Source of the DNA: a virus
Virus record (IMG/VR): IMGVR_UViG_3300024999_000073
Coordinates: 1-64,000 of that record
DNA: 64,000 nucleotides
Direction: 5' to 3' (one strand)
Positions within the stretch are counted from its first letter, which is position 1. Every line of letters starts with the position of its first letter. The translations under genes were made by a program, and so were the position numbers. Positions 4,794 to 60,602 of the stretch are shown one piece after another. The notes under the pieces were generated by a model. It worked only from the letters and a program-made list of their open reading frames with translations. It made no database searches and had not been told where the DNA came from.

Positions 4794-5126
4794 ATGATGG
4801 CTCCTCAAATAAACGAAAATAAACAACATCTTGTGGGTACAGCAGCAGTTGCAGGCTATAACACAATCATCGCTGCGCCTGGAGTTAGCAGGCATATTGT
4901 CGTGCATCGTTTTATCATCCAGAACGAGAATCCATCGGCTGTGACTGCGCAGCTATGCGATTATCTTTCCCCTCACTGGCGTGCGCTTTTGCAAAATCAA
5001 GGCGATGCCTTAGTGATGGATTTCCCCGTTGACGATCTGTGGTGGCTTGGCCTGAATGCGCCCTTGCAACTCCATTTGAGCGGTGCGCTTACAGTCGGAT
5101 ACAGCATCGAATTCGAGTACGCTTAA
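4794..5126 (+). CDS. Small virion protein, copy 2 of a duplicated gene
   Basis: 110 aa, same length and start (MMAPQINENKQ) as the copy at 2921-3253. Differences cluster at residues ~12-20, ~45-50 and near the C-terminus, with near-identical DNA between. RBS AGAGAGG lies just before the ATG. The two copies bracket the LRR-like gene and would allow homologous deletion or exchange of it. Function unknown. Confidence 0.7.
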   Translation: MMAPQINENKQHLVGTAAVAGYNTIIAAPGVSRHIVVHRFIIQNENPSAVTAQLCDYLSPHWRALLQNQGDALVMDFPVDDLWWLGLNAPLQLHLSGALTVGYSIEFEYA

Positions 5127-5139
5127 AAGGTTTTGTCTC

Positions 5140-7194
5140 ATGACAGTTAAACCGCCTCCACAATTGGGAAAAAGAATTCCAACGACGGTATATTTTACAG
5201 ACGGTTTCAATCGCTATGATGGCGATCTAGACAACGGCTGGCAATATACCGATGGCCTGTGGATGATTGTGTCTAGTAGAGCAGTTGGAAATCCTGGGAT
5301 GGGACCTAATCTGCTTGTCGATGGCGGAATGGAGAATTGGAATAGCCCAACCGATTTGACCAATTGGACAGAGGTTGTGGCAGGAGCGAGTACAGTCAAT
5401 CAGGAGGGCGTAGACATTCATGGGGGTACATATTGCACCAGGATGGATGGAGACGCCAATAATAACAGCGCGGAAATCAGGCAATCCGCTTTAGCAGCGA
5501 TTGGAGATTGGCTGTACTTCTCGCATTGGGGCAAGGGGTCGGGATCCCCGGCTGCGATATGGCAAGTTTTGACCGATTCAGTGACACTCCAACAACTTCA
5601 AGGCTCTACTTGGGCCAATTATTTCGCCACACGCAGAATACTTAGCAACGCCTATTTTTATCTCAAAAGAGCTTCATTCGCAAACAAATCAATTTACCTC
5701 GACGACGCTGCGGTATATAAACTGACTTTTGTTGACATGCTTTGCACCAGAAACGCTAACACACAGAATCCCGATCATAGCGTCAAGTTGACCATAGCCG
5801 CAGATATGCAGGCAGGTTTGATTACTTGTCTAGACGACAGGAATAATCCCCAGAATTATATTCTAGTTTATATTGATAGGAACACGGCTGCTGGAACAAA
5901 AATCTCAATGGAAAAAGTTGTTTCAGGTGTACGCACAAGCCTTATAGCGCCAACGGCGATAACTTATGGGGTAGACAAACCACTCAGAATAGTCAAAGAT
6001 GGCACAAACGTAAGTATGTACTACGATGGCGTTCAGGTTGGAGCAACGCAGACCATAAGTAATATCGAGATCATTAATAACACATATCATGGCTTTCTCA
6101 CGAGTTCTCCGAATAACTCTTTTGAGGATTATTCGATAACAGGCGCTTATGTATCCACACAAGATTGGCCTGGCGTCGGCGATACTGTATATGTCACGAA
6201 CTTAGGAGATAGCGGCCCCGGCAGTCTGCGCGCTGCGCTGGCCCTGACGTCCCCGAAGACGATCAAATTCAATATATGTGGCAATATCGACTTGCTTTCA
6301 ACTCTTACATTATCACAACCAGGCCACATTATTGATGGGAGCAGCGCCCCTTATGGAGGCGTATGTCTCAGAAAATATGGCATCTACGTTGATACCGAGA
6401 ATATCACTATTCGGCATATTCGCATCCGTCCAGGCAGCGATAATGGCAATGACATTGATGCAATTGGCACGAGTGTAAATTGCGACAATTTGTTAGTCGA
6501 ATACTGTAGCCTGTCCTGGTCTACTGATGAGCTTTTCGGGAGCTATGGAACAAATATCATTATTCGCTATTGCTTGCTGTACGAACCCTTGAACAATGCT
6601 GGGCATCCTTACGGCCCGATCTGGTCTGGTCTGGTTTCGCACAACGTTGACTTCCATCACAACTTGGTTGGATTGTCAACTTATCGTTGCCCGAAAGTAG
6701 ACAACGGCGCGGATCATTATTCGAGAGTTGCGAACAATGTAATCTACACCAGCCGATGGGTTACAATCGACACCCCCATCATTGGAGAGACAGTTTATGA
6801 GCAATATATAGACATCATGAGCAATTATTTCATAGCCGATCCAACTTGGGTCGCAACGTATGAGATCGAGACCTTTGACGCGCAGGTTCAAGCACACGTA
6901 TATTTGAACGGCAATATTGGCCCCCATCGTCCAACTCTCCTTATAGATGAATTGGAACTTATCTATCCTGGGGATGAGGCTTTTTTCGATTTGGTTGGCA
7001 GCCCCATTCAACCTGCACCGGATTGGCTGACAGATTATCTGACAGCTTATGCCGATGTTCTGGCGAACGCAGGCGCGACACTGCCTAAGAGAGACGTTTC
7101 AGACACACGCATCATAAACCATGTGATTGCCCTAACCGGTGCATTGATAACCGACCCAAGTGAAGTCGGAGGCTGGCCTGATCTGACAGTATAG
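5140..7194 (+). CDS. Tailspike-like protein with pectate-lyase-type beta-helix
   Basis: 684 aa from ATG 5140 (AAAGG 9 nt upstream); the longer in-frame start at 5083 would overlap the previous gene. Residues ~1-330 look like carbohydrate-binding/LamG-type jelly rolls. Residues ~345-600 match a pectate-lyase-like right-handed beta-helix: YVTNLGDSGPGSLRAAL entry, HIIDGSSAPYGG, ITIRHIRIRPGSD and NLLVEYCSLSWSTDE. Such phage proteins bind and usually cleave host polysaccharide at the tail tip. Catalytic residues cannot be assigned by eye. Confidence 0.8.
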   Translation: MTVKPPPQLGKRIPTTVYFTDGFNRYDGDLDNGWQYTDGLWMIVSSRAVGNPGMGPNLLVDGGMENWNSPTDLTNWTEVVAGASTVNQEGVDIHGGTYCTRMDGDANNNSAEIRQSALAAIGDWLYFSHWGKGSGSPAAIWQVLTDSVTLQQLQGSTWANYFATRRILSNAYFYLKRASFANKSIYLDDAAVYKLTFVDMLCTRNANTQNPDHSVKLTIAADMQAGLITCLDDRNNPQNYILVYIDRNTAAGTKISMEKVVSGVRTSLIAPTAITYGVDKPLRIVKDGTNVSMYYDGVQVGATQTISNIEIINNTYHGFLTSSPNNSFEDYSITGAYVSTQDWPGVGDTVYVTNLGDSGPGSLRAALALTSPKTIKFNICGNIDLLSTLTLSQPGHIIDGSSAPYGGVCLRKYGIYVDTENITIRHIRIRPGSDNGNDIDAIGTSVNCDNLLVEYCSLSWSTDELFGSYGTNIIIRYCLLYEPLNNAGHPYGPIWSGLVSHNVDFHHNLVGLSTYRCPKVDNGADHYSRVANNVIYTSRWVTIDTPIIGETVYEQYIDIMSNYFIADPTWVATYEIETFDAQVQAHVYLNGNIGPHRPTLLIDELELIYPGDEAFFDLVGSPIQPAPDWLTDYLTAYADVLANAGATLPKRDVSDTRIINHVIALTGALITDPSEVGGWPDLTV

Positions 7195-29950: not shown

Positions 29951-30235
29951 ATGGCGGAGAAATATAAGTATCATTGTACTCCAGTACCAGGAACGTTGTG
30001 CAAAGAAGAAGCACAATGGCTGGTTTGGTTCGAGAAATGTGGTAATTTATACACATACATGTGTACTCATCATGCAACGGAAGCGATGAAAAACGGTGTG
30101 GATGGCTACGCTGTGATTTGTGTTCGCTCTTTTGAAGATGCTGTGTGCCTGTGTATGCCTGACATTGAGAAGGCCATAGAAATATTCCTGAATTCAGTTG
30201 AGAGCGCCGTAGGATTTCAAAAGCATGGACGATAA
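29951..30235 (+). CDS. Unknown cysteine-containing early protein
   Basis: 94 aa, RBS AGAGG. Contains spaced cysteines and histidines (YHCTPVPGTLCKEEA, YMCTHHATEAM, CLCMPDIEKAIE) but no standard zinc motif I can name. The 13-bp element lies in its leader. It overlaps the methyltransferase-like gene by 11 nt. Confidence 0.5.
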   Translation: MAEKYKYHCTPVPGTLCKEEAQWLVWFEKCGNLYTYMCTHHATEAMKNGVDGYAVICVRSFEDAVCLCMPDIEKAIEIFLNSVESAVGFQKHGR

Positions 30236-32846
30236 AATCTTGCAAGACTTTTTAGAGCAATTCAAAGCCGAGGATTGGTATGGCCTATATCATGGAGGCT
30301 GGAAGAACGAAGTAATACCGGCGTCTCAAAGCCATCCCGCGAAATTCAGCCGTCGCTTGATTCGTCGTATCTACGAACATGCCTTTGCGGAAGGCTGGTT
30401 GAAAAAAGGATTGCGAGTGCTGGATATTTTCGGAGGCGTCGCACTTGGAAGTTTGGACGCCATGCAGATGGGATTGAATTGGGTGGGCGTAGAGATAGAG
30501 CCGCGCTGGGTTGCATGTGGGATGGGCGGCCATTGCGACGGCCAACCCATCGTAGTTGAGGCCAAACCTGGGATTCGAGGTTGGTATGTGGTGTACAGAG
30601 ATGGCGAGAACGGAAACTTCAGCGAGTTCTACATCGGAGTAAACGGAGAACCCAGTCAAGACGAGCCGGATGGCGAGGGTTTCAAGTCACGCAAAATCGC
30701 GCTTGCATTTGCGCATGAACTTGACATGGACGGCCTGGAGCTACGCAAGGTCAGGGAGGGTCAGACTTTCGCCAAAGCCTCTTTATGTGGGAACAAAGAA
30801 AAGCACGAAGCGCACGAGATCAAAGGCAATATCCAGCTTTGGAACGATAAATATGCGGGAATGCCACATTGGGGAACTGCGGTCTTATTGAAAGGCGACT
30901 CTCGCAAGCTCAGGAAAGTATTGGCCGAGAATGGGCATCTAGGGAGCCAGGACATGAGCGCGAGTAGCCCTCCATTCCAGGAGACTAATGCCGATGGAGG
31001 CTGGCAAATGTTGGGAAAGTACGCCCGCCAGGGCCGCTTGACGGTAGACCAGGTGAAAGGTAAATCGGACAAATCCTACCCTTCTTGGGAAGAAAGCAGA
31101 GATACAGGCCCCGGAGACGCAGCCGAGAACCTGTCAAATTTTGACAACGGCGATTACCAGGCGATAGTTAGCTCACCCCCTTATGCTGAGACCGGATTGC
31201 GCAACATTGACGACAAGGCGGAGATAATCAATCAAGGACGTAGAGAGCGCGGGGAAGTGCAAGGTGGGACGGGCAGAAGCGGGGTGTTAGGGCAATCGCT
31301 GATACAGGGAGACGGGTATGGATTGGCGCCCGAAAATCTAGGCAATCTACAGCCCGATGGCTTCGATGCCTGTCTTGCGTCACCTCCATACGCCCAGGCC
31401 AGGATAGAAGGGCAAGGCGACGAGGGAGCGTCGGGGTTACGCAACGAAGACGGAAGTTTTGTACGTGGGTCTGAGGGCTGGCAGAAGCGAGTAGAACTTG
31501 GCGACCGCTACGGCGAAACCCCCGGCCAACTTGGAAGTCTAGAAGCTGAGCATTTTGATTTTGAGGTAGGGAGTCCGCCATTCATAGCGCAGGGTGGGGG
31601 TGGGAATGTTACATCCACAGGAGGCCCATTAGCAGATGCAAGTATGATAAAGCGACATGGGGCAGGAAATTCTGCATCGATGGCTTATGGGGAGGACTCA
31701 GCTAACCTGGCGGCGATGGATGGCGAGGGCTTTGATGATGCTGTGGAGAAATCTTGCGAACATTCGCAGGATAATGGGCAGCCGGATTTAGCCCTTAGCT
31801 CTCCACCCTATGTTTCCGGTGGGCATCACCCAGATCAAACCGGGGCTTGGGGAGGGCGACTCAACGTTATTGATGAGAGCGAGGCTAGTTACGGCAAACA
31901 GATCGGGCAAATGGGGCAAATGGATGTTAAGGACTTTGATTTAGCCGCAGCCAGTCCGCCATTTAGTGAGAGTTTGAGCGGGGATAGGGTGATACCTGAA
32001 ATAAGAGTAGCCAGAGCACGAGCAATGGGTCTTATAAGCGCGGCGGATGTATCCCCCATTGATTCAGAGAAATTTGGGGAACGTTCGCAAGAAATAGGCG
32101 GGGAGGCAGCCCAGCTTTCTCATATGGCAAATACCGAAGCAGATTTCGACCTCTCCGCGACTTCTCCTCCATACGCGGACTCGGTGAACTCTGAGAAATC
32201 GGGGATAGATTTCAGCAAAGGCCAGTTGGATTATCCGGGCCGGAAACTACACGAATCACGTATTACCATGCAAAAGCGGCACCACAACGACCGCAATTAT
32301 GGACAAGAGCCGGGCCAGCTTGGAGCTATGGAAGACAAAGCATTCGAGGGTTCGGTGTCAAGTCCTCCATTCGAGGCCAGCACCGGCGACCGTCCTAGTG
32401 CGAGCATACGCGCTACTTTCGATAGAGGCGAAACCGTGTTCGGGCCAGCGATGTTGAACGACAGCGGGTATGGTGCAGATAGTGGCAACATCGGTAATGA
32501 CAGCGGCATGGACTTCTGGTCGGCGTCCAAGCAGATACTCCAGGAGCTTTTTTCCGTACTTCGTCCTGGGGCAAAAGCCATCTTCGTTTTAAAGCGATAT
32601 ATCAAGGATTCCAAGATTGTTCAGTTCCCGGCGCAATGGGCCTATCTAGCTGCTACAGTTGGGTTTATACCCCTGCATTGGCACAAGTGCTGGATGATCG
32701 AAGACAGAGGCACACAATATGACCTATTCGGCGGCAAAATAGAGAAGATCACAGCCAGGTACTCATTCTTCCGCAGACTGCACGCCAAGAAATACCCGCA
32801 CCTGGAAATTCAATACGAAGATGTGATTTGTTTTCTTAGACCGTAG
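30225..32846 (+). CDS. DNA methyltransferase-like protein with eight SPPY/SPPF motifs
   Basis: 873 aa. Residues ~62-95 (LRVLDIFGGVALGSLDAMQ, VGVEIEPRWVACG) are an AdoMet-binding motif I. From ~residue 245 to ~720 the catalytic motif IV of amino-methyltransferases (SPPY/SPPF) occurs eight times, about every 65-70 residues, often preceded by YG..PGQLG.L....FD. The C-terminal part (LRPGAKAIFVLKRYI, then WHKCWMIEDRGTQYDLFGG) looks like the end of one methyltransferase fold. Normal enzymes have one motif IV. Two dispersed 13-bp elements lie inside it in-frame. Related multi-SPPY proteins occur in metagenomes as far as I recall; target and activity are unknown. Confidence 0.7.
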   Translation: MDDKILQDFLEQFKAEDWYGLYHGGWKNEVIPASQSHPAKFSRRLIRRIYEHAFAEGWLKKGLRVLDIFGGVALGSLDAMQMGLNWVGVEIEPRWVACGMGGHCDGQPIVVEAKPGIRGWYVVYRDGENGNFSEFYIGVNGEPSQDEPDGEGFKSRKIALAFAHELDMDGLELRKVREGQTFAKASLCGNKEKHEAHEIKGNIQLWNDKYAGMPHWGTAVLLKGDSRKLRKVLAENGHLGSQDMSASSPPFQETNADGGWQMLGKYARQGRLTVDQVKGKSDKSYPSWEESRDTGPGDAAENLSNFDNGDYQAIVSSPPYAETGLRNIDDKAEIINQGRRERGEVQGGTGRSGVLGQSLIQGDGYGLAPENLGNLQPDGFDACLASPPYAQARIEGQGDEGASGLRNEDGSFVRGSEGWQKRVELGDRYGETPGQLGSLEAEHFDFEVGSPPFIAQGGGGNVTSTGGPLADASMIKRHGAGNSASMAYGEDSANLAAMDGEGFDDAVEKSCEHSQDNGQPDLALSSPPYVSGGHHPDQTGAWGGRLNVIDESEASYGKQIGQMGQMDVKDFDLAAASPPFSESLSGDRVIPEIRVARARAMGLISAADVSPIDSEKFGERSQEIGGEAAQLSHMANTEADFDLSATSPPYADSVNSEKSGIDFSKGQLDYPGRKLHESRITMQKRHHNDRNYGQEPGQLGAMEDKAFEGSVSSPPFEASTGDRPSASIRATFDRGETVFGPAMLNDSGYGADSGNIGNDSGMDFWSASKQILQELFSVLRPGAKAIFVLKRYIKDSKIVQFPAQWAYLAATVGFIPLHWHKCWMIEDRGTQYDLFGGKIEKITARYSFFRRLHAKKYPHLEIQYEDVICFLRP
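31756..31768 (+). repeat. Dispersed 13-bp element, copy 4 (GCGAACATTCGCA)
   Basis: Within the methyltransferase-like gene, read as C-E-H-S-Q-D. Confidence 0.8.
32077..32089 (+). repeat. Dispersed 13-bp element, copy 5 (GGGAACGTTCGCA)
   Basis: Within the methyltransferase-like gene, read as G-E-R-S-Q-E in the same phase as copy 4. Confidence 0.75.
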
Positions 32847-37424: not shown

Positions 37425-38948
37425 CTACTTCCAACCTGAGAATGCGTGTTCGGCTATCATTCGAGAGAGTTGAGCGGTCAGCTCAGCCGGGTTAGTGATA
37501 CCGGAGTCGAAGGCGATAAAGGCATCAGCGAGAGACTGCATACGCTCATTGTTATAGCGCCCCAATTGCACGTACATAAGGCGCGCGCCTGACTCCTTCT
37601 TGGTTTTCTCGAAGGCATCCATAACCTGAGGCGACGGGTTACAGATACCATCACTAATCATCATAATGTCGATAGCCTTATCTCCATGTGACCATTCTTT
37701 GATCCTGGCAATGGCATGAGTGAGGACAGCGTCAAAGTTAGTGCCGCCGCCCCTGGAGTAACTCGCCCACTTGCAATGGGCTTTCCAGTCATCCTTGTCC
37801 GTAACGTGGTGATCGTCATCGACATCGGACTCAAAGGTATAGAGTTCATAACTCCTATCCTTCAAGTCTTCCATCGTAGCCTTAGCGACGCCCATGGCCA
37901 CGCCCTTAGCCGCAACCGCATTACTGCCCTGGCCCCATCCCATGCTACCGGAGTCGTCGACGTAAGCAGCGAAGTTACCGCCTATCACGCTTGACTCCAG
38001 GGGTTGCCAGCCTGGTAGACCGTCGCTCGCGAACCTCTGGATTCTCTTGGCGCGTACAGCCACGTGAACAGATGGGTGCATGAGCGCGATTTCGTGAGGA
38101 AAGATATGAGACACATCCTTTGTATTCTCCACCTTGGCGGCGGGTCCGAACTTACTGCGCTTGCAGTCCCGTATCGTCTGTTTTGCAATCCCCTTAGCGC
38201 GCCCTAACTGTAGAGCCAGCATAGAGAAATCGCTATCATTTGCCATCTCCAGAATTTCGGAGATGTCGTCAAGCTCTGTGGTAAGGCCGGGGTCGATCCC
38301 CCAGCCGCGCATAAACGCATTGACCTTATTTGCAGCTTGCCCTGCTTCATAAACAGCAGAGGCAACTACCTGGCCTTTGACCGGATCCTGCCTAATCTTC
38401 TCAATACCTTCGACAGCTTCCCTGGCGACTTCAGTGGCCATTTGACGGATTTGTTCGGCGTTCTCGAACTTCTGAGTAGCGGCATTACTCACCATTTCCT
38501 GACCGAGTTGATCCTCAGGCGCACTCTGTAGAGTCTCAGCGGCCTCCTGTTCCTCTTTCTTAGCGCGCTTTTCCAAGTCATCAGCCTGTCGCTGGCGATT
38601 TAGCGCATTCTGGATAGAGTCGTCGGTTCTCAGCGACTCCCAGAGCAGAGACGAAGCGGCTAAACTGGCCGGGATATTCCCTGCTGTGGACTGGACTGAC
38701 TCCTTGAAGTCCTTATCGCAAAGAGTCCAATCCATAATAGCCTGGTTGACCTTGCGTTCAGGAGGCGCGTCGTCGATAACCTGAGCGCCGGACTTATAGA
38801 GGCCCAGGAAAGAGTCGCTGAGAAGATCATGTTCGCCGTCGTTGGACGGTGCAGAGTCTACCGTAGTCTGGAGAACACGGGTGATAGCTTTCTCACCCGT
38901 GCTCACCCTGACCGTATTGATCTTAGCTTTGAGAGGTATTTTTTGCAT
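37425..38948 (-). CDS. VWA-domain protein (CobT-like) paired with MoxR ATPase
   Basis: 507 aa, RBS TAGGAGG. N-terminal ~290 residues are helical and charged (coiled-coil-like around KRAKKEEQEAAETLQ). The C-terminal VWA domain has a complete metal site: DDSGSMGWGQ (DxSxS, ~residue 330), GGGTNFDAVL (T) and MISDGICNPS (D). With the next gene upstream it forms a MoxR/VWA pair similar in plan to CobS/CobT, in which the AAA+ ring remodels a target presented through the VWA. The phage role is unknown. Confidence 0.8.
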   Translation of the reverse strand: MQKIPLKAKINTVRVSTGEKAITRVLQTTVDSAPSNDGEHDLLSDSFLGLYKSGAQVIDDAPPERKVNQAIMDWTLCDKDFKESVQSTAGNIPASLAASSLLWESLRTDDSIQNALNRQRQADDLEKRAKKEEQEAAETLQSAPEDQLGQEMVSNAATQKFENAEQIRQMATEVAREAVEGIEKIRQDPVKGQVVASAVYEAGQAANKVNAFMRGWGIDPGLTTELDDISEILEMANDSDFSMLALQLGRAKGIAKQTIRDCKRSKFGPAAKVENTKDVSHIFPHEIALMHPSVHVAVRAKRIQRFASDGLPGWQPLESSVIGGNFAAYVDDSGSMGWGQGSNAVAAKGVAMGVAKATMEDLKDRSYELYTFESDVDDDHHVTDKDDWKAHCKWASYSRGGGTNFDAVLTHAIARIKEWSHGDKAIDIMMISDGICNPSPQVMDAFEKTKKESGARLMYVQLGRYNNERMQSLADAFIAFDSGITNPAELTAQLSRMIAEHAFSGWK

Positions 38949-38957
38949 GGCAACCTC

Positions 38958-40130
38958 CTAGAACGGCGGCGGCTCGTCATCGTGTTGAGGCTGAGGGCCG
39001 CGCACGAACTCAGACAGAGACCGCAAAAGCGCGTTATGAGCTTCGAGATAACGCTCATCTTTATCATCGCCGCCGACCAAAGCCAGGATATTAGGAACTT
39101 CTTGGTTCAAGACCTTACCAAGCTCAATCGAAGCCAGGCGGCGGTCAGTTATAGAGGCGGCCAGTTGTTTCATCTTAGCGTAAGCATACTTCATTGCAGT
39201 CTCGATAGCAGCGGTAACGGGGTCGAGCAGAGAAGCGCCGACCAACTCCGCCCAATCGCGAGCTTCTTCCGGAGTCTTTGTGGCCCAGGCGTATTTAATC
39301 ATATCCATGGCTTCAGGACTGACCCGATTGAAGTCCTCGGCGTCCTGATAGAACGCAGACAGTCTATAGAGCATCCAGTTCCAGATCGTCATACGGCGAG
39401 GGTTAGGATGTCCAAAAGCGCGGACAATCTTACCGTCAGAACCCTTGAGTCCCTCGCAGGCGGTGTTAGCTATGTCTCTACCAGCCTCCGAGACGCATTT
39501 TACGGCATTAGGTCCCGGATTGAAGTGGCGCACCCTATAAATCACGGCGGCGTCTGGAACTCCATCGACGACCATTTCAGAGTTCATGGCAGCGAGGGCG
39601 TTTACGCCTACTGCGATAGGATCGAGTTTGACGTCAGGAACGTGGTAGTAGAGACCGATACGATCCAGCAGCGCCTCAGTTCTTGCGCTATCGGGTAAAG
39701 AGTTGGCTGTGCATATAGTCGAGGGAACATCTTGAAGTGGTATATCGAGTCTATCCATAACATCCATGAGAATGTCATAGACAGCATCAGAAGGGCGACC
39801 GAATTCATCTGCGATATAAGCGCCAATGCTCTTTTGATATGGAGTACCGGCGACGATCATATTCCACTCACTCTTAGTCGTGAAAGCTGGCACATCCAGA
39901 TAGCCCGTCATTTTTTCTGTGGGCGTAGTTGGGTTGAACCTGGTCATGACATAATTGTCGCCGAAGGCAGCTTTAGTGACTGCTCTTGCCATGCGAGTTT
40001 TACCCAGGCCAGGTCCACCAACCATGACGACATGCACGCCAGCCAAGAAACCGGCGATGCAGACCTGTTTCATTTCCTCGGCATATGCGCCGACGAAATG
40101 ACCGAAACCGTTATTACTTGGTGTGTTCAT
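38958..40130 (-). CDS. MoxR/CobS-like AAA+ ATPase
   Basis: 390 aa, leader AAAGGAGTCTATCA. Walker A GGPGLGKTRMARAV (~residue 38-51), MoxR signature FNPTTPTEKMTGYLDVP, Walker B AYIADEFGRPSD (~105), sensor 1 STICTANSLPD and arginine-finger region SARTEALLDRIGLYY. C-terminal lid helices (PNPRRMTIWNWMLYRL). MoxR ATPases act as chaperones with VWA partners; the next gene downstream, 9 nt away, is one. Confidence 0.85.
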   Translation of the reverse strand: MNTPSNNGFGHFVGAYAEEMKQVCIAGFLAGVHVVMVGGPGLGKTRMARAVTKAAFGDNYVMTRFNPTTPTEKMTGYLDVPAFTTKSEWNMIVAGTPYQKSIGAYIADEFGRPSDAVYDILMDVMDRLDIPLQDVPSTICTANSLPDSARTEALLDRIGLYYHVPDVKLDPIAVGVNALAAMNSEMVVDGVPDAAVIYRVRHFNPGPNAVKCVSEAGRDIANTACEGLKGSDGKIVRAFGHPNPRRMTIWNWMLYRLSAFYQDAEDFNRVSPEAMDMIKYAWATKTPEEARDWAELVGASLLDPVTAAIETAMKYAYAKMKQLAASITDRRLASIELGKVLNQEVPNILALVGGDDKDERYLEAHNALLRSLSEFVRGPQPQHDDEPPPF

Positions 40131-59114: not shown

Positions 59115-60602
59115 CTATGACTGAACTTCTGGCTTATACTCATGTTCTTGTAAGCCGAACGTCCAGGCAATCGCTTGCCTGGGAGTCGCCATATCAGGTG
59201 GGACACGTAAATAATAATTCTTGTACGTTCCATCTTGTTCGGGCGTTGAATTCTTAACCTCAACAATGACGATTAGCTCATCATTAGCTACTTCGCGCCG
59301 AAAGAGTGTACCAAAATCATCTTCGATGTATATTTTTGATCCAGAAGCGAAAAGATAATTCTCTGCACCAATCTGATCTATCATCACACGCCTGATCTCA
59401 ACATTAGTCTCGGCGTCAATCTTTGACACAGTGATCTCTTGTGGTCTCTCAATCACGTATTCTGGCACCATAACGCCATGCACGGCATAGATTTTCCACC
59501 CATCTGAGAATGTGACTGCGGGTCCAGAATCGTTGTGCATTCGCCAACGATCATCCATACCAATGAATATTGGTCTATCGCAAACAAAGCATACATTCTC
59601 GAATGGATACCACCAAAATGAATTCTCTGCCAGATTTTTCCAATGATTCAAAATTATCATCTGGTCATCGGTGTGCATTGGGCGTAATTTTTCATGGGGA
59701 TAAAGGTAAAATGAAATCCAATTTGAATCTAAACTTCCCCATAAACTTGTTGGGATAAATTCTATTTTGCTGTTATCCCGCAGGTTATCCCCCAGGTTAG
59801 CCCACAGGTTATTCTCCAGGTTCTCCCCCAGGTTAGCCCCCAGGTTATCCCACAGGTTATCCCGCAGGTTATCCCCCAGGTTAGCCCGCAGGTTATCCCC
59901 CAGGTTAGCCCGCAGGTTATCCCCCAGGTTAGCCCCCAGGTTAGCCCACAGGTTATTCTCCAGGTTCTCCCCCAGGTTATCCCCCAGGTTATCCCCCAGG
60001 TTCTCCCCCAGGTTATCCCGCAGGTTATCCCACAGGTTAGCCCGCAGGTTATCCCGCAGGTTAGCCCCCAGGTTAGCCCACAGGTTAGCCCGCAGGTTAT
60101 CCCCCAGGTTCTCCCACAGGTTAGCCCGCAGGTTATCCCGCAGGTTAGCCCGCAGGTTATCCCGCAGGTTAGCCCCCAGGTTAGCCCACAGGTTAGCCCG
60201 CAGGTTATCCCCCAGGTTATCCCACAGGTTAGCCCCCAGGTTAGCCCGCAGGTTCTCCCCCAGGTTATCCCACAGGTTAGCCCGCAGGTTATCCTCCAGG
60301 TTATCCCCCAGGTTATCCCACAGGTTATTCTCCAGGTTCTCCCCCAGGTTATCCCCCAGGTTAGCCCACAGGTTATCCCACAGGTTAGCCCACAGATTGA
60401 TGACTACAACAGCAGTCAATGGACTTTTACAATGCCATATAATCGGCGGCTTTTTATTTATCGTCATGTAGAATTTGTCTATCGTTGGCCTGATCGCTCT
60501 CAGATTGGCTGGACCCGTAGATAAGCCGATCTTTCGCCATTTCTCTCGGAAGGCGATCATTTCAAGTTCTTGTTCAGGCGTTAATGATTGTATTTTGCTC
60601 AT
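59115..60602 (-). CDS. DUF6745-like protein with ~52 tetrapeptide repeats
   Basis: 495 aa. Residues ~1-65 are a globular cap (IRPTIDKFYMTINKKPPIIW). Residues ~68-277 are an uninterrupted array of about 52 tetrapeptides [W/G/R/E][A/D/E/N]NL. Residues ~290-430 fit a DUF6745-type domain (HNDSGPAVTFSDGWKIYAVH, GVMVPEYVIERPQEIT, RRVMIDQIGAENYL). Period four distinguishes it from pentapeptide repeats. The remainder (FRREVANDELIVIVEVKN, YYLRVPPDM) is conserved-looking. Function unknown. Confidence 0.7.
   Translation of the reverse strand: MSKIQSLTPEQELEMIAFREKWRKIGLSTGPANLRAIRPTIDKFYMTINKKPPIIWHCKSPLTAVVVINLWANLWDNLWANLGDNLGENLENNLWDNLGDNLEDNLRANLWDNLGENLRANLGANLWDNLGDNLRANLWANLGANLRDNLRANLRDNLRANLWENLGDNLRANLWANLGANLRDNLRANLWDNLRDNLGENLGDNLGDNLGENLENNLWANLGANLGDNLRANLGDNLRANLGDNLRDNLWDNLGANLGENLENNLWANLGDNLRDNSKIEFIPTSLWGSLDSNWISFYLYPHEKLRPMHTDDQMIILNHWKNLAENSFWWYPFENVCFVCDRPIFIGMDDRWRMHNDSGPAVTFSDGWKIYAVHGVMVPEYVIERPQEITVSKIDAETNVEIRRVMIDQIGAENYLFASGSKIYIEDDFGTLFRREVANDELIVIVEVKNSTPEQDGTYKNYYLRVPPDMATPRQAIAWTFGLQEHEYKPEVQS
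59772..60397 (-). repeat. 12-bp coding satellite, ~52 units
   Basis: Plus strand reads CAGGTTATCCCC-type units repeated without a break. CAGGTT (AAC-CTG in the gene) is almost invariant. The other six bases come from a few choices: codon 1 TGG, GGG, CGG or GAG; codon 2 GCT, GAT, GAG or AAT. Confidence 0.95.

Follow-up and report, generated by a model that had tools for sequence, protein, structure and literature searches.

The window analysed here is a 64,000-nt stretch of an IMG/VR virus record of 82,286 bp, which carries phage genes for a terminase large subunit, a tape measure protein, a tail spike, a DnaC-like loader and a replication initiation protein. At positions 30225-32846 of the plus strand lies a methyltransferase-like gene, an 873-aa ORF that opens with ATG. 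Its product has a sole AdoMet motif I, VLDIFGGVALGS, at aa about 65-76, whereas SPP[YF] is present eight times, at aa 248, 317, 386, 450, 526, 577, 647 and 713 (nt 30966, 31173, 31380, 31572, 31800, 31953, 32163 and 32361). This confirms the original prediction of one motif I and eight SPPY/SPPF segments in one ORF. From composition alone 0.012 of these motifs would be expected, and the most that arose in any of 20,000 shuffles was two. The predicted unit of ~65-70 residues is roughly right, but the real spacing is 51-76 aa (69, 69, 64, 76, 51, 70 and 66). A linker of the YG..GQLG type, which had been described as frequent in the form YG..PGQLG, is indeed clear in units 2, 3, 5, 7 and 8, weaker in unit 4 and degenerate in units 1 and 6. 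At the DNA level no two units are near-identical, and repeats within the gene are limited to matches of 14-18 nt.

The array lies between the two halves of a methyltransferase core. The N-terminal half (30225..30554, +) contains a W.G.Y..W / HPAKF region resembling motif X, the AdoMet motif I (VLDIFGGVALGSLDA) and GVEIEPRW. Residues P38, A39, K40, D67, F69, G71, E90 and E92 are invariant here in alignments A2/A3, and Pfam N6_N4_Mtase matches aa 35-94 at E 3e-4, below its curated cut-off. A variable insert (aa 111-200; 30555..30824, +), with low pLDDT at aa 128-185, separates motif I from a GN(I/L)xLW helix; the insert is large in other members too, and by eye is similar in L041 and absent from L011. 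The GNIQLW helix, a motif III-like ...LLKGDSR and the first β-4 strand follow (30825..30965, +; pLDDT 86-96 over aa 201-240), with G224, D225, S226 and R227 invariant in alignment A2. The C-terminal half (32514..32843, +) reads FW.A...IL..L..VLRPG..AIFVLK followed by a RYSFFRRL signature, and F14, W15, P31, K40 and FFRRL are invariant in alignment A1 of the window protein and its relatives. Across the family the order is HPAKF, motif I, GDSR, the repeated units, FW...LKPGG...K and ...SFFRRL. Each repeated unit consists of β-strand 4, motif IV (SPPY), a variable loop (median 33 aa) and the YG..GQLG linker. In single-SPPY relatives, namely the phage enzyme L134 and the Streptomyces plasmid enzyme L137, this segment is present once in the same place, which argues that the unit is a defined segment of a normal methyltransferase and not an added domain.

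The eight units, hereafter cassettes, all lie on the plus strand and carry distinct loops, most of which recur in other phages. In what follows n/m denotes cassette n among m in a protein, and loop matches are scored by pairwise loop comparison. Cassette 1 (SPPF, 30966..31172) has a ADGGWQMLGKYA.QGRLTVDQVKG loop and a degenerate linker; its loop is 69-75% identical to those of L035 3/3 and L056 4/5, where the C-terminal backbone is 39-42% identical, and its type is also cassette 1 of L136. Cassette 2 (SPPY, 31173..31379; linker YGLAPENLG) has a weak match only (L114 2/3, score 41). Cassette 3 (SPPY, 31380..31571) combines a DEGASGLR..G.FVRG loop with the linker YGETPGQLG and matches L107 4/5 at score 121 against a backbone identity of 36%. 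Cassette 4 (SPPF, 31572..31799), with a ..RHGAGN loop and the linker YGEDSANLA, has relatives in L056 5/5, L103 2/4, L104 7/7, L042 3/7, L034 2/4 and L136. Cassette 5 (SPPY, 31800..31952; loop VSGGHHPDQTGAWGG, linker YGKQIGQMG) is related to L046 5/7, L007 1/3 and L052 2/2, and a scan with its signature found it in a different phage methyltransferase with one SPPY (L134/L135), whose only motif IV it supplies. Cassette 6 (SPPF, 31953..32162; alignment A4) bears an ARAMG.....SPID.EKFG loop and a degenerate linker, and matches L034 4/4, L021 3/3, L046 2/7, L085 2/5, L032 3/5 and L136 3/3. Cassette 7 (SPPY, 32163..32360; alignment A5) has a ADSVNSEKSGIDFSKG..DYPGR loop and the linker YGQEPGQLG, with relatives L030 1/3, L055 4/6, L119 2/2 and L012 1/2. 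Cassette 8 occupies the last slot (SPPFE, 32361..32513; linker YGADSGNIGN) and found no loop relative among the 280 units compared; nor did cassette 2 find a clear one in that set.

What kind of enzyme does this architecture describe? The window protein has motif I and a motif IV of the (D/N/S)PP(Y/F/W) type, as in class I AdoMet-dependent DNA amino-methyltransferases. N6_N4_Mtase scores above its cut-off in four relatives (L036, L061, L011 and L042), and all DNA-methyltransferase family matches with a named class are to amino-methyltransferase models, none to a C5 model. The motifs run in the gamma-group order (HPAKF - motif I - GDSR - SPPY - LRPG..VLK). Gamma-group amino-methyltransferases follow the order X-I-III-IV-VIII-TRD, with NPPY as motif IV and one C-terminal TRD (PMC2890505). 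In the window protein, however, motif IV is SPPY or SPPF and is repeated, with a loop after each copy, in place of NPPY and one C-terminal TRD. The best explanation of these features is an orphan DNA amino-methyltransferase, predicted to act on N6-adenine or N4-cytosine. Neither the window protein nor the L134-type single-SPPY enzyme closely matches a methyltransferase of known target, and plasmid relatives carry different loops; an attempt on this basis to assign a target to a cassette gave none.

Structure prediction, which had been suggested as a check, supports folding around AdoMet for the core but leaves the array unplaced. In the AlphaFold model of the window protein pLDDT is mostly 82-97 over aa 1-100 and about 80-97 from aa 761, and both halves of the core fold confidently, whereas aa 241-749 are mostly of low confidence and the array falls below 50. 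The best structural match of this model is TTHA0409 (PDB 2ZIE) at a weak E of 0.006, and all its methyltransferase-fold matches lie at E >= 0.006. A Rossmann-like methyltransferase fold is clearer in the two-unit relative L011, whose model has 239 PDB matches at E<=0.001 with methyltransferases on top. There the strand of the first SPPY sits in the core sheet and the second unit is mostly below pLDDT 50. The models thus agree with one core plus a loose array. Alternative docking is not seen in either model, nor does that of the window protein indicate which SPPY reaches the cofactor; because AlphaFold left the array unplaced, we infer docking rather than observe it.

A tblastn search of phages and plasmids with the window protein and a scan of viral contigs for close relatives returned nothing. 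Relatives were instead recruited from viral and bacterial genome contigs with a degenerate DNA pattern in which the linker is followed by SPPY 12 aa on. This yielded 58 stretches in viral contigs and three in bacterial genome contigs, nearly all with frames holding at least two SPPY-type motifs, and the C-terminal domains of these proteins align with that of the window protein (alignment A1). A search with the C-terminal domain, which is independent of the tandem motifs, matched 67 viral loci. At least two SPPY units (range 2-7) were present in 45 of the 47 complete distinct proteins that it recovered: 13 with two, 12 with three, ten with four and ten with five to seven, the other two having one unit and a GFPPF variant. 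The array is thus the rule in this family, and the outcome set against the original prediction, one conserved SPPY with the rest sporadic, did not occur. One member, L105:2906-4378, has one GFPPF, a long loop and what by eye is a helix-turn-helix-like stretch (FTKAEIDQKVGTNTAYAFWEGRN).

In total the family set comprises 80 distinct proteins with long open frames. Comparison of repeat number and order in related phages, as had been proposed, gave a copy number of 1 to 8 without a fixed set or order, and the eight units of the window protein are the highest count seen. Outside viruses the family is scarce: among 294 genomes sampled from the phylum of G001 (labelled a Phycisphaeraceae MAG), the single match was the already-known locus L061 of G001. 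The best full-architecture PHROG match of the members is PHROG 12517 (L011, E 6e-17; window protein, E 5e-5), whose profile of 316 positions is too short for the array and has no annotated function. The window protein is a diverged member of a mostly viral and apparently undescribed family.

Units cut from the family (280 in all) were compared pairwise by their loops, with a score of at least 45 taken as a match. Between proteins, 407 of 38,601 loop pairs matched (related lineages being counted more than once), against 1e-4 for a shuffled null; within proteins the figure was one of 459. None of the 198 units with a partner had its best partner in its own protein, although by label permutation this within-protein non-redundancy is modest (P about 0.04-0.10). 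The within-protein excess of loop similarity that recent tandem duplication would give is excluded. For the window gene, recent tandem duplication was likewise rejected: long DNA repeats are missing, and no loop has its closest partner in its own protein.

Six window cassettes (1, 3, 4, 5, 6 and 7) have clear loop relatives in other phages, with best scores of 65-175, in proteins whose C-terminal identity to the window protein is only 31-48%. The positions of these loops elsewhere vary (e.g., 3/3, 4/5, 5/5, 7/7, 1/3 and 4/6), and the three-cassette protein L136 carries window types 1, 4 and 6 in that order. Family-wide, 92 matched pairs come from proteins with backbones below 65% identity. In 78 of these the loops show higher identity than the backbones, a comparison biased upward because the pairs were picked for loop similarity. 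The change of position is unaffected by this bias: only 18 of the 92 pairs share the same index, and matches run freely between first, middle and last places. The loops therefore look like cassettes shuffled among distant phages and drawn from a common library, and the comparison supports gains, losses and reorderings of cassettes by recombination over evolutionary time. Among the possibilities first raised, there is strong support for a series of alternative target-recognition/catalytic loops, in that the loops are conserved, distinct within a protein and shared between distant phages at differing positions. That of recombination-driven diversity is supported as cassette shuffling over evolutionary time; there is no sign of active in-gene switching, which a search for direct repeats inside the window gene leaves unsupported because long ones are absent.

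Matched loops keep their protein identity while third positions approach saturation. Among pairs with estimable dS, dN/dS is mostly about 0.05-0.3, in inner and last cassettes alike; for L042 5/7 and L030 2/3, for example, dN is 0.08 and dS 0.99. Matched loops, those of inner cassettes included, thus show purifying selection. The catalytic motif is likewise largely kept: of 202 linkers, 130 are followed by SPP[YFWH] and 49 by the C-terminal half, which leaves 23 with neither. About 12 of these 23 are real variants by eye, mostly SPSF/SSPF within one related group. In L005, L008, L048 and L059, SPSF, SSPF or SGPF replaces SPPF and is kept across related loci; such cassettes possibly have an inactive or altered motif IV.

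The last slot differs from the others. A Glu directly after SPP[YFW] occurs in 51 of 78 last cassettes and in six of 202 others, where Ala or Ser mainly takes its place, and SPPW is also enriched in the last cassette (11/78 vs 3/202). In 23 matched pairs, spanning about nine types, the Glu is present when the cassette is last and missing when it is inner, and the reverse was never seen, in a tally that ignores relatedness. Window cassette 8 (Glu region 32361-32375) and the single unit of L100 carry this Glu. A search for partner residues found only that it goes with an intact last linker. The slots are therefore not fully equivalent. In six proteins (L014, L016, L045, L113, L096 and L032), one to three extra cassettes lie beyond the C-terminal domain, and these proteins end on or just past a YG..G(Q/N)LG-type linker. 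The trailing cassettes could either dock out of order or be spares.

How might a chain work that combines a single AdoMet site with many intact motif IV cassettes? We consider it probable that the window gene encodes a multispecific orphan amino-methyltransferase, with one AdoMet core and eight interchangeable cassettes, each docking in turn. Each cassette would supply β-strand 4, the catalytic SPP[YF] and a target-recognition loop, and the YG..GQLG linker would lead on to the following cassette. Only a single cassette at any moment would lie docked next to motif I as strand 4, so that alternate docking could let a single chain methylate several DNA sequences, one specificity per cassette. Several methylated targets may in turn shield the phage genome from several restriction systems; by analogy with the multi-TRD C5 enzymes of Bacillus phages, an orphan phage enzyme most likely serves to counter restriction. 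Phages would gain, lose and reorder library cassettes through recombination over evolutionary time. The bolder form of this proposal, to which we give an even chance, is a strand-exchanging enzyme in which a single AdoMet pocket is contested by eight alternative β-4/motif IV/recognition cassettes, spares beyond the C-terminal domain could dock out of order and the last-slot Glu marks the default or resting occupant.

The asymmetry of the last slot also lends itself to another reading, in which one cassette, probably the last, beside β-5, is active and the rest form a silent library that renews the active slot by recombination, as in silent-copy antigenic variation. The skew in Glu and the roughly nine types that carry it when last and not inside fit this scheme, as do the six proteins whose extra cassettes follow the C-terminal domain, away from where motif IV normally sits. 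However, inner cassettes keep SPP[YF] and are under purifying selection, the window gene has almost no internal DNA identity to drive recombination, and the L011 model places the first SPPY, not the last, in the core. On balance a silent library is unlikely. Inner cassettes might alternatively be non-catalytic DNA readers that tune or lengthen one recognition site around one catalytic SPPY, given the single motif I, loops that vary like DNA-reading elements and the lack of the last-slot Glu in inner cassettes. This is poorly compatible with a catalytic tetrapeptide kept in nearly all inner cassettes, with the changing number, set and order of copies, and with cassette 5 as the sole motif IV of L134, and we regard it as very unlikely.

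The use of cassette 5 in L134, a predicted enzyme, is the strongest sign of a cassette serving alone. Together with purifying selection on inner cassettes it makes a decoy, or any reading with one true SPPY, unlikely, and the decoy suggested by the original prediction is accordingly disfavoured. Degenerate linkers in window units 1 and 6 and the SPSF/SSPF variants of four loci could be taken as traces of a decoy or of functionless, decaying tandem duplications, but simple tandem duplication would not leave every loop without a best match in its own protein, and neither low dN/dS in matched loops nor long open frames in 80 proteins suit decay. We give this explanation almost no weight.

Multispecificity is textbook knowledge for C5-methyltransferases from a handful of Bacillus phages, in which the TRD alone is multiplied and the catalytic Pro-Cys motif stays single. 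The exchange of TRDs as modules is also familiar from Type I HsdS and phase-variable methyltransferases, where catalysis lies with a separate subunit that does not vary. In the window family, unlike in HsdS shuffling, the catalytic motif travels with the recognition loop. The enzymes of Bacillus phages SPR, SP-beta, phi3T, rho11 and H2 are described as multispecific C5-methyltransferases whose target-recognition units stand in tandem and whose presumed role is protection from many restriction systems (PMC8936443 and PMC12707154, citing Wilke 1988 and Trautner 1996). The window enzyme resembles these in being phage-borne, in forming one chain and in its predicted tandem target-recognition units. 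It differs in belonging to the amino-methylation class and in repeating motif IV with each loop, in up to eight units, and on its motifs it falls outside the Bacillus phage C5 family. L134 and L137 share its core motifs and its order of motif IV, loop, linker and β-5, and L134 also has window cassette 5, but both have one motif IV only. TTHA0409, a weak sequence match, likewise has one motif IV, and its catalytic region precedes motif I. No description of a family with repeated motif IV was found in the open-access literature, a scope outside which most subscription journals and preprints lie. As far as found, then, multispecific phage methyltransferases are known and a catalytic motif that is repeated and traded is new.

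If the proposal is correct, uncultured phages hold a widespread amino-methyltransferase counterpart of the multispecific C5 enzymes, and one small gene could guard viral DNA against many different bacterial restriction enzymes. It would also be a case of an active site built from alternative strands. The arrays suggest that phage protection against restriction may build up stepwise in one gene, and the family would provide a naturally occurring stock of short motif-IV/recognition modules, in which new methylation specificities could be sought and tested.

Among the ORFs scanned near the methyltransferase gene, many of them small and without a match, none was recognised as a restriction endonuclease. 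Elsewhere in the window, positions 37425-40130 (-) encode an AAA_5/MoxR-like ATPase and, adjoining it, a protein that weakly matches VWA; together the two resemble a pair of the CobS/CobT type. A DUF6745 protein (E 4e-53) is encoded at 59115-60602 (-), and its aa 130-196 match a PADLOC Type I specificity-subunit model. The pectate-lyase-like protein at 5083-7194 (PHROG 27797, E 1.5e-25) is probably a tail depolymerase. Outside the window, at about 66-79 kb of the record (G000; L002 4052-16739), a candidate glycan cluster was recognised by eye in the phage record, with ORFs for a glycosyltransferase, an FkbM-like methyltransferase, a sulfotransferase-like protein and a DegT-like aminotransferase.
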